The notes under the pieces: model-generated
Databases searched by the model: none
Told to the model about the DNA's origin: nothing
Seen by the model: the letters and a program-made list of their open reading frames with translations, nothing else
Program-made: the position numbers and the translations under genes
In this document: positions 16,801-22,800 of the stretch, piece after piece
Position numbering within the stretch: the stretch's first letter is position 1
Layout: each line of letters opens with the position of its first letter
Origin: Cristatella mucedo
Lineage: Eukaryota; Bryozoa; Phylactolaemata; Cristatellidae
Direction of reading: 5' to 3'
Length of the DNA stretch: 64,000 nucleotides
NCBI GenBank assembly: GCA_009760855.2
Contig: WPIO01000004.1
Location: 202,001-266,000, forward strand

Positions 16801-19800
16801 TATATTGAAACTTAATTACTAGCGAGTAAGTTTGATTTTTCTTTGGTTCTGTCTACCTTTAGAGCTTTTAACTCCACAGAGTTAGTCAGTATTGCTATAT
16901 AACGACCTTATCACGAATTCAGACTTATGTAAAGTTTCTCTGGTTTGGTCCAGCGGTTCAGGTGCTCGCCCCGACCAAGGTATGACTGATGTCGTCGGCT
17001 CGAGCCCCGAGGCGCATGTGAAGCGCCTGAATAGATATTAAGTTATCTTGGGGCGCTATACAAATGAATTATATTTACTCACTTGTTTTGCCTTATCTTT
17101 CGGCAGCACTTCATACCATTGATCACCTAGTAATTCTGGAGCATCTCACATATTGCCTGGGTGTAAATCACACTGAGTGCTCTGCAATGGTTCGTATCCT
17201 ACCTCAATGACAGAATCCTGAGCATTGACGCAAACGGAAAGACATAATCTGAGGAACCACTGAAGTGATATGTACGTCGGGGCTCTGTATTTGGTCAGCT
17301 TCTGTTCACAGTTTATTCTTTCCCTCTTGCAATGCGATCGCCAAGCGCAATCTAGGCTTTCATTTTTATACAGATCACACTCAGTTGAACCTTTGCTTTG
17401 ATCCCTCCCAGTCCTCTAGCGCGTCAATTTCTCAACTTCTTTGCTGCATGTACTGCTGCCATCAGCAAATCAATGGAAACAGACTTTATCAAATTTAATG
17501 ACGATAAAACCAACTTAAAGTAGGAAATTGGAAAGCCTAGCTCTCCAAATCGGCTCTGCCAGAATATCTCGTGTTGCATCTGCACAAAAGCTTGGTGTCC
17601 TGCTGCAAGGTGGCCTTGCACTAGATGACCAGATCAGCTCCAGTTACCTGCTTTCAGCTATATAAAATTCTAAAATTCGGGCGTGCTAAGACAGGGAGAC
17701 TACATACAAAGTGGTCCTTGGATTTTTAACATTCCTTCTCGACATCTGTAACTAAACTAGTTTGCTGGTCTACCTGCCTGTTCATTCTGATGATTCCAGT
17801 TGGTGCAAAACTTGTCAGCTTAGCTTGTCGGTCGTCAGCTTCGCAGTTGCCACATCACACCGCTTCTCGCCGACTCGCGCACTGGATTCCAATCAAGCAG
17901 CGCATCGAGTCAAGGTTCTAGCTTCTTACTTTTAGGTGCCTTTCATTCATTGGCTTCAGCCTTACCTATCCAATCTACTCCCCCCCCCCACTAGGCTAGG
18001 CATCGTACAACCCGCTTTACTGACTCAAATCTTTTAGCTTTACCCCGTATGAACCTCAAATTCTCTGGAGACCACGCCTCCAGTTGTATACTCTCAATAC
18101 CCGAACTCACTCCCGATGGACGTTAAGTCATTCCTGACTTGGTGACATTTAAATGAAGCTTAAAACGCACCTGTTTATTGCAGAATTCTGTGAGTCCTTG
18201 AGATTGTTTGTATGCTTGTACGTGCCGACACTACGGATGCTACCACTATACACATTTTACATGTCGATGCTGTGCATGTCACATTTTACCTTGGTGTACT
18301 CAATGACGTTGTGCGTATAACCACTAACCCTTTGAATATGCTTCCTTTACGGCATATGTAAATTTCATAGAAAGAGTTTTAGTTCTCTGAGGGTCCTATA
18401 CAAATGCGTTATTATATTATTGTAAGTCTATTTTACAGCAGTGGACGATTACAGGCGTTCAAAAGCAGCCATGACGTACACCAAGTGAGCAGATGCGTAG
18501 AGCTCAGATAAGCTCAAATGCCAACGCCAAATACGGAACTAAAACTGCCTTCCTATCTCGCGATGCCTTCTTTTCTACGGACTGCTATAGATTATCGTGT
18601 AATCGCGAATAAATGATTTTCATCCATACGCTGGCCGGTTTTGCTGGTGCCGCCGTTTAGCGTAACTCTTGCACCACGTTTCAGAAATCGTGGGTTCAAC
18701 TTATGCTGACGACACGACGCTTTCTTCTTTCGCTTCTTTCTAATTCTTTTAATGCCGCGAAATTCTTTTAGGGCTGCTAGCCATTTCTTTTTTAGTCTGT
18801 CTAGCGGCTACGAAGCGGGTTCATTTTCTCATAACATTGCTGCTCCTGAATGTTCCGCGCCGAGCGTCTCGGCGCCGAGATCGAGGTCGAGCCCTTTTCT
18901 CGCAGAATAACGAATGGAACGGCGTGGTCCGCGACCTCATCGACGGCGTAGCCGACTTGTCTATGACCTCGCTCAAGGTCGCGCCCGATCGCGTCGCCGC
19001 CATCGACTTTTCGGTGCCGTTCCTCGAGACCGGCATCACGATTCTCGTTTCGGTTCGGCAAGGCGCCGTGTCGCCTACGGCCTTTTTGGGTGAGAGTGCG
19101 TTCGCGACAGCGAACAGCAGCTTCGGTCACTGTCTCTGCCAAAGCCTCAGCCGCTGCCGAGCCTGCTGGCGGGCACGCTCGTCTGCTGTCGCCGCCGCCG
19201 CTGCCGCTGCCGCCGCCACCGCCACCTCTACCGGCAGCCGTCGGCCGCTATCGGGCGGCGGGCGGACGGACTCTCGAGCATGACTCTGTCTCTGTCTCAC
19301 TGTCTTTGTCTCCGTGTCTCTGTCTCCGTGTCTCCGTCTCTATCTCTATCTCTGTCTGTCTTTGTCTCTGCTTCCCAACGAGTCACTTTCGGTCGGTCTT
19401 TGCGGTCGCTACCCTCAGCAGCTGCTGCTGGTGAAGCTCGCAGCACGGCCGCCACCTTGCAGAGCCGTACGAGTATACGGTCTGGGTAATGGTCGGCGCG
19501 GCCGGCTCCTTCTTGGCCGGCATCACGATATTCGTCTACGAGATCCTGAGCCCGGCCGGCTTCCATCATCCGCGCCGCCCTCGTAAAGGTACCCCTCTCG
19601 ACGAGACGCGACGCGAGGTCACAGTGGGGAACCGTCGCCCGGTGCTTGGCCGCCGTCGTAGCGAACGAAACGTTATAGTCACCGTCGTCTCGCCGCGAGA
19701 TCGGTGTCGCGGCGGCGTTCCGTGTCGCACTCGCTCGCCCCCTCGAGTCACAGCAGCGATCGTCGTTCGTCTTCCTCTTCATCATCGTAGCCCTGTCCCA

Positions 19801-22800
19801 CACGCTGAGGCACTCAGCCCGATGTCGTTCGCTCCGACTGCGCCATTTTGTCGTGTCGTTTTGCAAAGTATCCTCGGTGTTGTTAAATTAGTCTCACGAA
19901 TCAGGAAGCTCTCGAAGCTCCTCCGCTCAGTGGCATACGCGTGCACGCTTTGAAAGCGAGCTCGCAGCACTTAAAGCTGGTGCGCAAGGCCGGGGGCTGC
20001 TAGCGAGGCAAACTAGACGGCGACCGCTAATGCAGGAACAGCTGGGTGCTCGGCGTGCTTAGTGGACACGTGACCACTTAACCAGCTATGCACGTAATTT
20101 TCGCGTCCTTTATATAAAAATCATAAATTTAGATTTGTATTCATTTACTGCTATAAATTATATATAAATACGGTTTTGCAATCGTATTTACCCGTTTACG
20201 CTGTGGCGGTACCAAGGGGTGGGCACGGGGGGGGGGGGCGCGCGAGATTGGCTATCTATGCCTCCGAAGCGGGAAAGCGACGTGAGACGCCCCCCCCCCC
20301 ATATCTTTCACCCCAACCGTCACCGATGGCGAAATTAAGCCCTACATCCAGTTGAAGAGTAGCCGCCGTTTGCGCATCGAACAAGCACTTGATTTCGTCT
20401 ATCACTTTTCATTAGTCGCTCTGCTTGCCCCCTACTTGCTATTCCTCGCTCCGTCGATGCAGCATGCACAGGTCACGTGCACAGGTCACGTGCACGAATG
20501 CAGCACCTCCGCCTATGCTAGTAGCTATCTCGCCGATATCGTCAAAAAAGGCAGAGAGAGAAAAACGACGCCCGGCTCTCTCAAGGTCATCGCATGTTGT
20601 TTTCGGTCGACTCCCTCGAGCCTGACTGCGAGGGCTACGTCGACGCCCCAGATGCTCGTGCCCAGCAGCAGCGTAACGGGCAGACACATTTAATTAGTAA
20701 TCTTTTGAAGTCTTTTGAAGTTTATGGATTATAATGGGAATGGAATATCATATAATATAATTATATAATAATATAATAATTATTATAATATATATTTAAT
20801 TACAATTATAATTATATAATAATATAATATAATTGAAATTGGAATTACAATGGATTGTAATTGCTGTCCTAGACTTGGCATCTTATCTTCTTGTCACAGA
20901 CTAGCTAGCACGCGAACAGGCTGACGGTCGCATCAGCTGAGGAAGGGAGACGCATTCCGATTGGCGGGCTGCGAACGGGGGCCCCGTCCACCGCCGAAGC
21001 CGCGGGCACCCTGCCGGGGCTCCCCACCGTAGCCCCCCCCCCCCCCGTACGTAGCCGTGGCAGCCACACAGCGCGGCTCCCGCCGCGACTGTTCTCCGGT
21101 GGCATCGCCGCTCGCAGCGTCCGCCGGACGACGCCACTGCCGCTACATCGTCGCACTGCACATTCGTCACGCGTGTGTCGCACAAGCGGCGTGCGCCGCT
21201 ATCACGCGTGTGTGTCACCTCATGTGTGCATCGTGCTACGTGCATCGCTGCCATTCGCACGCCAGTCGCACGCTTTCGCGTCGCCGCTTCGCCGCCGACG
21301 AGCGTGGGCACCGAAAGTCGGCGGCGGCGACGCCTGCCTACACGATTGTCCTTCGTTCCGCTTCCACCGCCGCCCGCCCTCGCACCGCCGCCGCCGCCGC
21401 TGCAGCCGTCGTCGTTTGCAGAGCCGTACGATTATCCCACGTGGCTAATTAGCCTGTTCGTTAGCGTAAACCTCGCCGGGGTTGTCGTTTTTATCACGGA
21501 GTACTACAGTCCTTTAGCGCTGAACAGAGGCGCTAACGACGGAGGTAACTGACCGAGGTGGCCGCCGCCGCCGCCGCCTCCGCTCTATCCTCCTATCCGA
21601 GCGCTGCTTCGCTCTCGTGTCACGGCACGTGGCTGCGGCGCTGGCAAACAAAAGCTTCGCGCCGCGCCGCCATCCCGCTCGGCGCCGCCATTCCGCGTCT
21701 GCGCCGGAAGCAGCGGCAGAAGCACAAGTCAGGTTTGCTCGCACGCTCACTCGCACCGACCGACCGACCGACCGCTTGCCCAGGCCACAGGTTCTCGCTC
21801 TTCCGGTCGCTTTGGCTCATCTGGGCGATACTGTTCAGCGCCGCAGTGAAGACGGACAGCACCAAAGGCCTGGCCAGCAGGTAGAGCAGACGAGCTTTCG
21901 GCTTCCGGGCAGCGGTCGGACGCTGACCGGAAAGCCTCGCGGAAGGCTCGGGCTGCTCGGCGCATGCGGCGGAAACGGCAGCGCCGATCGAGATCAAACC
22001 TACTCTTATGAAACCGGTGTGCGTGCCTGAGTGCAGACGTGCGTGCGTGCGTACGGGCGGGCGGGCGTGGATGCAGGCGTGCGGAAATCGGGAAATCGGA
22101 CGCCATTGCAGATTCATGACGGCTGTGTGGGCACTTTTCTCGCTCGTGTTTCTCGCGAGCTACACAGCAAACCTTGCAGCGTTCATGATCACTAAAGAAG
22201 ATTACTTCAACTTTGAGGGAATACAGGACATAAAGGTGACATAGAACTGCGTCGAATGCTGCGCTGTGTTTTTTCCCGACCTCTCGTGCCGCTGCGCGCG
22301 CATGCGCACAATGCAGCTTCTCAGGCACCGTCTCTGGCACTCGCTTCCTTCCGCACTTCCCGGTCTGTGTAAAGCGGCCTCAGTGTCGGCTGTTACGTTG
22401 CAGCTAACGCAGCCGTACACGCTTAAACCGCCGCTCCGCTTCGCAACCGTTCCTGACGGAAGTACTGCCATTAACCTGAAGAAATACTATCCGGACATGT
22501 ATAGCTACATGTCGGCCTACAATAAGAACTCGATTAAAGATGGGATTTCGGCACTCAGGGCCAAGTATATATTCGCACTTTTGCGTGCTTTTGCTCTCCC
22601 TCTCTCCCTCCCTCTCTCTCTCTCTCTCTCTCTCTCTCTCTCTCTCTCTCTCTCTCTCTCTCTCTCTCTCTCTCTCTCTCTCTCTCTCTCTCTCTCTCTC
22701 TCTCTCTCTCTCTCTCTCTCTCTCTCCCTCAACCGGCCTTTCTTTTGCGAGGAAAATGGCGGCGGTAGTGGCTGGATCTCATGGGCGGCTGCTGGGTGCA

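Follow-up and report, generated by a model that had tools for sequence, protein, structure and literature searches.

A putative pair of mutually exclusive M1 exons in a GluN2-like NMDA receptor gene of the bryozoan Cristatella mucedo

Analysis of a 64,000-nucleotide stretch of the Cristatella mucedo genome (assembly GCA_009760855.2, contig WPIO01000004.1, forward-strand positions 202,001 to 266,000; referred to here as the window, with positions counted from its first letter) reveals that its plus strand encodes the channel part of a GluN2-like N-methyl-D-aspartate (NMDA) receptor subunit, and that two exons of this gene, M1a and M1b, each look like a GluN2 M1 exon. An earlier sequence-only reading had proposed two complete exons for the pre-M1 linker and the first membrane helix (M1) within one such gene, which is supported by the results below. 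Of the possible readings, mutually exclusive splicing fits the anatomy of the pair best; the use of both exons, their exclusivity and their conservation are inferred. The observation itself is real, and judged from the sequence it is fairly probable that both exons are used, one at a time.

The two M1 exons

Both exons are preceded by TTGCAG and, as the sequence-only reading had noted, start with the letters AGCCGTACGA.TAT. Their entry and exit phases are identical, and either copy can be joined to the same upstream S1b exon and the same downstream M2 exon, also in agreement with that reading; a join of eight exons from S1 to M4, one of them an M1 exon, is open in one continuous frame with either copy (frame from base 13387). 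The lengths are 126 nucleotides (nt) for M1a, or 120 nt with the donor at 19582, and 123 nt for M1b. The pair displays several features that characterize mutually exclusive exons: the two are neighbouring, similar in length, in the same phase, joined to the same flanking partners, homologous, and coding for the same part of a domain.

In an ungapped comparison, 12 of 40 residues are identical between M1a and M1b, a value reached by none of 20000 residue shuffles, and 50 of 120 nucleotides are identical, a value reached by 24 of 20000 codon shuffles. The strong divergence inside the membrane helix and the M1-M2 linker that had been described is thereby confirmed, with 28 of the 40 residues differing. 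A repeat finder applied to 17500-24700 reports the pair as a family (D5) of 34 nt with 79% identity. The 100 nt on either side of the two exons show only 32% ungapped identity and hence no similarity, which indicates that the duplication is old or that the introns have turned over. The identity between the copies is concentrated at the acceptor and the first 28 bases (19457-19490 and 21416-21449), with 21 of 28 positions identical versus 29 of 92 elsewhere; this shared 5' stretch is possibly a common splicing element, in a contrast that was chosen after the fact.

The splice sites of the pair are ordinary GT-AG sites, of the U2 type by eye. The exons had been placed at 19463-19582 and 21422-21544, and both are present, but the end of M1a is revised. 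The donor at 19582 (CTC/GTAAAG) agrees with 5 of 9 consensus positions and forms a U1 duplex of -1.9 kcal/mol, whereas an in-frame donor six bases further on, at 19588 (AAG/GTACCC), agrees with 6 of 9 and forms a duplex of -5.6 kcal/mol. Because the latter is stronger in both consensus and U1 duplex, the end of M1a is placed at 19588, and the exon is probably 126 nt long with a protein end of HHPRRPRK. The site at 19582 may be a second M1a donor; alternation between the two sites could add or drop Lys-Gly in the M1-M2 linker. The M1b donor agrees with 7 of 9 consensus positions (U1 duplex of -6.6 kcal/mol).

Searches with each exon alone point to GluN2 in both cases. The best match of M1a is GluN2D (E 0.0015) and that of M1b is GluN2B (E 0.01), and for each exon 59 of the best 60 of 70 matches are named GluN2 or NR2, the other being named "Glutamate receptor". 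When flanking residues are included (12 before and 14 after), the first matches are GluN2D for M1a (E 2.4e-11) and GluN2C for M1b (E 1.3e-12). The Pfam Lig_chan score of the model without M1 is 81.4 bits, to which M1a adds 21.5 and M1b adds 17.1, giving 102.9 bits for the M1a form and 98.5 for the M1b form (curated cut-off 30.8). The most hydrophobic 19 residues have a mean Kyte-Doolittle value of 2.05 in M1a and 2.19 in M1b, compared with 2.68 in GluN2D. With a codon log-odds score trained on 527 codons from ten other stretches of the gene, the score of M1a is reached by none and that of M1b by one of 1244 open non-coding windows, which overlap and come from stretches that were used for the background as well.

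When 12 gene pieces are searched against the window in six frames, M1a and M1b are the only two that match one another (E 2.4e-5 and 2.3e-5); the best of the remaining non-self matches belongs to M3 (E 0.046), and neither a third M1 copy nor a duplicate of another exon is found among these pieces. That M1 alone is double speaks against a larger segmental duplication and against merged paralogous genes. An assembly artefact, in which two paralogous GluN2 genes or two haplotypes would have been merged in the contig, is therefore very improbable: the copies are far too different for alleles, their flanks lack similarity, and a merge that duplicates exactly one exon would itself be improbable.

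Proposed exclusive use and the integrity of both copies

Several observations weigh against exclusive use of two working exons, beginning with the ways in which exclusivity might be enforced. The length of each exon is divisible by three, and a transcript with both copies or with neither would therefore have no frameshift; the tandem form that contains M1a followed by M1b is likewise open in frame. This tandem protein even scores highest in Lig_chan (108.6 bits), and the Lig_chan score therefore provides no argument against joint inclusion. The intron between the two exons measures 1839 nt (with the donor at 19582), which is too long for steric exclusion. The strongest pairing between the intron before M1a and the stretch before M1b (-58.2 kcal/mol) is not equalled in any of 24 dinucleotide shuffles of the whole intron, but 10 of 96 shuffles in which local composition is preserved equal it; pairing of the inter-exon intron with the intron after M1b is matched in strength by 1 of 24 whole-intron and 32 of 96 local shuffles, and that of the intron before M1a with the intron after M1b by 7 of 24 whole-intron shuffles. 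Competing intronic RNA pairing was rejected as evidence because its significance is lost under shuffles that keep local composition.

None of the known enforcing mechanisms (frameshift, a branch point at less than 50 nt, a U2/U12 clash or competing RNA pairing) is found here, and membership in the mutually exclusive class does not require one: 484 of 629 human mutually exclusive clusters were concluded to depend on regulation of another kind than incompatible sites, steric hindrance or a frameshift (PMC5740500). Frame, intron length and splice-site type, the last judged by eye, do not enforce exclusivity, and regulation must therefore do so. We infer a protein-mediated choice, in which RNA-binding proteins, rather than frame, steric spacing or minor-spliceosome incompatibility, would select the exon.

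What favors exclusivity is membrane topology. Independent cassette exons, with some transcripts containing both or neither copy and producing subunits of altered topology or dominant-negative effect, would be permitted by the code, since every combination keeps the frame and nothing in it removes such transcripts. However, a subunit that lacked M1 or contained two would have M2 to M4 in reversed orientation in the membrane; for this reason paired membrane-helix exons are considered very unlikely to be cassette exons, as the presence or absence of both switches the membrane side of everything downstream (PMC5740500). The cassette explanation is accordingly very unlikely. The mutually exclusive use that the sequence-only reading had expected thus stands as the best anatomical reading, with no lock by frame, steric hindrance or pairing.

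The introns of the gene contain several sequence features of note. A CTCTGT-type pyrimidine tract occupies 19284-19370 in the intron before M1a, and a pure CT tract lies at 22594-22730 in another intron of the gene. A far stronger CT tract (203.5 versus 8.0 motifs per kb) lies in an intron without a known alternative exon; because tracts of this kind are also present elsewhere in the gene, the one before M1a is treated only as a lead towards polypyrimidine-tract regulation. An AT-rich island (20744-20851) is present in the otherwise G+C-rich intron between M1a and M1b.

The integrity of the copies is the second subject on which contrary points arise. The M1a donor is weak at either site, and beside other exon stretches both copies have low codon scores (0.140 for M1a and 0.091 for M1b, compared with 0.106-0.671 for the ten other stretches in leave-one-out scoring), that of M1b lying below all ten. 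Each exon keeps just 10 of the 24 columns that are identical in GluN2A, 2C and 2D. One of the two exons may alternatively be a relic or be almost never spliced, the gene then having in effect a single M1 exon. The weak M1a donor and the low M1b codon score are in line with this, as are the position of M1b approximately 1.8 kb beyond M1a and its pre-M1 proline (EPYDYPTW), which lies one position earlier in vertebrate GluN2C and 2D and is missing in GluN2A and 2B. However, despite approximately 70% amino-acid divergence, neither M1a nor M1b contains a stop or a frameshift or has lost a splice site, and of the columns common to GluN2A, 2C and 2D the residues E, P, W, F, E, S and P are retained in each. 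These features argue for two intact copies, and a relic is unlikely.

A comparison over 37 columns bears on the age of the pair. M1a agrees with GluN2A, 2C and 2D at 13, 13 and 14 columns, respectively, and M1b at 11, 11 and 14, whereas M1a and M1b share 12; that the two copies are no closer to each other than to vertebrate GluN2 is a further contrary point. This lack of closeness fits an old divergence and could also mean that one copy has drifted. M1a and M1b share four residues that GluN2A-D lack (Tyr at column 5, Leu at 18, Ala at 19 and Gly at 20), and vertebrate residues are kept by M1a alone at six columns and by M1b alone at four. The pattern fits a single duplication within this lineage, after which both copies diverged over a long time. 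Purifying selection judged by codon position was set aside, the 25, 18 and 26 differences at positions 1, 2 and 3 (39 codons) being too saturated. A 303-residue query from the M1b form (isoform B) gave no confirmed match in collections of viral contigs (11 pattern places) or genome contigs (42), neither of which is meant for animal genomes.

Subunit identity and the remaining window

The exons of the gene are listed in Table 1. The joined model began at 13385 and the codon-score set at 13386, and the exon start at 13335 was read from CTCAG/C. When the core of isoform B is compared with the PDB, the best match is GluN2A (E 5.3e-97, residues 1-385 of 403). Chains of GluN2A, 2D, 2B and 2C are matched; among the best 60 of 372 matches, 59 are named GluN2 or NR2 and the remaining one is named "Glutamate receptor" only. 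The Pfam family Lig_chan-Glu_bd is matched with 84.1 bits (curated cut-off 30).

The M3 exon contains SYTANLAAF, a gate motif that is named for ionotropic glutamate receptors in general (PMC5225553). At the Q/R/N site of M2, the gene encodes LFSAAV where GluN2A has VFNNSV; the asparagine expected of vertebrate GluN2 is absent, and the subunit is therefore named GluN2-like. Insect NMDAR2 also departs from asparagine at this site. Asparagine at the Q/R/N site characterizes the pore of NMDA subunits (PMC3778433) and does not mark descent. The pore-loop exon thus has Ser and Ala in place of the asparagines linked to Mg2+ block and Ca2+ permeation.

Two probable exons of the amino-terminal domain (ATD) are tentatively assigned. 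Together they match Pfam ANF_receptor with E 2.9e-4 and 20.4 bits, which is under the curated cut-off of 25.4, and in the PDB they match GluN2A ATD chains with E 0.74, ranked behind two unrelated chains. The search for an exon encoding the start of S1 in 4563-13334 yielded nothing convincing, a pattern search giving a single doubtful place (8406).

Table 1. Exons assigned to the GluN2-like gene, in window positions
Feature	Coordinates	Strand	Basis
Probable amino-terminal-domain exon, tentative	4060..4199, start approximate	+	weak Pfam/PDB matches jointly with 4358..4562
Probable amino-terminal-domain exon, tentative	4358..4562	+	acceptor CTACAG, donor CAG/GTTGGT; weak matches jointly with 4060..4199
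S1 exon, ligand-binding domain, FCIDLLQRL...	13335..13482	+	aligned to GluN2A from FCID on
S1b exon, common upstream partner of M1a and M1b	18906..19089	+	frame open; GluN2A alignment; donor TGG/GTGAGA
M1a exon: pre-M1 linker, M1 helix, basic M1-M2 linker	19463..19588	+	in frame with S1b and M2; alternative donor 19582
M1b exon: pre-M1 linker, M1 helix, near-neutral M1-M2 linker	21422..21544	+	in frame with S1b and M2
M2 pore-loop exon, common downstream partner	21784..21880	+	aligned to GluN2
M3 exon with SYTANLAAF	22112..22235	+	joined frame, GluN2A alignment
S2 exon	22404..22564	+	joined frame, GluN2A alignment
S2 exon	22850..23031	+	joined frame, GluN2A alignment
End of S2 and M4 exon	23960..24201	+	joined frame, GluN2A alignment
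Probable C-terminal exon with stop, ...MIPR-stop	24460..24630, start approximate	+	open frame; assigned by position only

Elsewhere in the window, a reverse transcriptase frame on the plus strand (9363-10139; RVT_1, E 3.4e-26) lies in the long stretch that separates the probable ATD exons from the S1 exon; the frame that follows (10143-10739) matches no Pfam family. A second, partial reverse transcriptase copy lies at 31851-32252 (RVT_1, E 6.2e-12). In several frames, a long GA/CT microsatellite at 14006-14806 gives Arg-Glu or Ser-Leu repeats. Scans of the window for tRNA genes (ARAGORN, bacterial code) and for Rfam families at gathering thresholds returned nothing.

Related exon pairs and predicted consequences for gating

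Gene architecture of this kind is known, but we know of no example at GluN2 M1. The closest parallel is the flip/flop pair of the AMPA receptor genes (GRIA1-4), likewise a mutually exclusive exon pair by which the gating of an ionotropic glutamate receptor is tuned; it encodes the end of S2 and the S2-M4 linker, differs at 8-10 of 38 residues, and consists of exons of 115 nt (PMC8257547), a length at which joint inclusion shifts the frame. In C. mucedo, by contrast, the pair encodes M1 itself, differs far more in sequence and keeps the frame. Nicotinic receptors are members of the pentameric Cys-loop family. In this unrelated channel family, exons 3 and 8 of the insect nicotinic acetylcholine receptor alpha6 gene are also tandem-duplicated exons of a neuronal ligand-gated channel, mutually exclusive there, and the alternative exons predate the radiation of insect orders, approximately 300 million years ago (PMC1919356).

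In vertebrates, the pre-M1/M1 region also varies, and its residues align to both exons described here, but the variation lies between the genes GRIN2A-D (GluN2A-D) rather than within one gene. The vertebrate M1 segments are far more alike, with 26 of 37 residues identical between GluN2A and 2D. Splicing reported for human GRIN2B and GRIN2C concerns variants of the 5' untranslated region and, in GRIN2C, a 63-nt insertion in S2, with nothing at M1 in the excerpt of PMC8257547. Transcripts of the spiny lobster include NMDAr2a and NMDAr2b, for which the excerpt of PMC6150509 does not state whether they are genes or splice forms. According to the sequence-only reading, no such exon pair was known to be described for GluN2, and none is described in the titles and abstract beginnings found, a coverage that leaves most subscription papers outside; its novelty thus holds for the part of the literature checked.

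We propose that a GluN2-like gene underwent tandem duplication of its ancestral M1 exon and that the copies now serve as alternatives, one per mature mRNA. The gene would thus produce two subunits that share the ligand-binding domain, the pore loop and the gate but differ in the pre-M1 linker, the M1 helix and the cytoplasmic M1-M2 linker. Switching between them may alter gating by changing the effort required to move pre-M1 away from M3, and with it activation, deactivation and agonist potency. The pre-M1 proline is kept in both exons, and its replacement by Arg in GluN2A (P552R) makes glutamate and glycine more potent and the response slower (PMC5240934); additionally, pre-M1 of GluN2 is proposed to control, together with M4, the entry to and exit from clusters of openings (PMC10036335). 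Because the residues around the pre-M1 proline, most of M1 and the M1-M2 linker differ between the isoforms, changed activation and deactivation are the likeliest predicted outcome. A second effect may arise through the charge of the M1-M2 linker, which is +4 with three His in the short M1a form and +1 with one His in M1b. An effect on pore blockers is less certain because the pore loop is common to both isoforms.

It is a tentative proposal, to which we give somewhat less than an even chance, that this animal changes NMDA receptor gating in its nervous system through a choice between two ancient, strongly diverged M1 helices encoded by a single GluN2 gene. If true, a property that vertebrates vary by means of four GRIN2 genes would be varied here by splicing, and the pair would constitute a natural chimera experiment in which the pre-M1 gating element and the outer helix, which studies of pre-M1 connect with opening of the gate, are exchanged while the binding domain, pore loop and gate remain fixed. 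The role of the GluN2 M1 helix would then be readable in a living nervous system, and GluN2 gating diversity would be a trait that can be gained by splicing within one gene.

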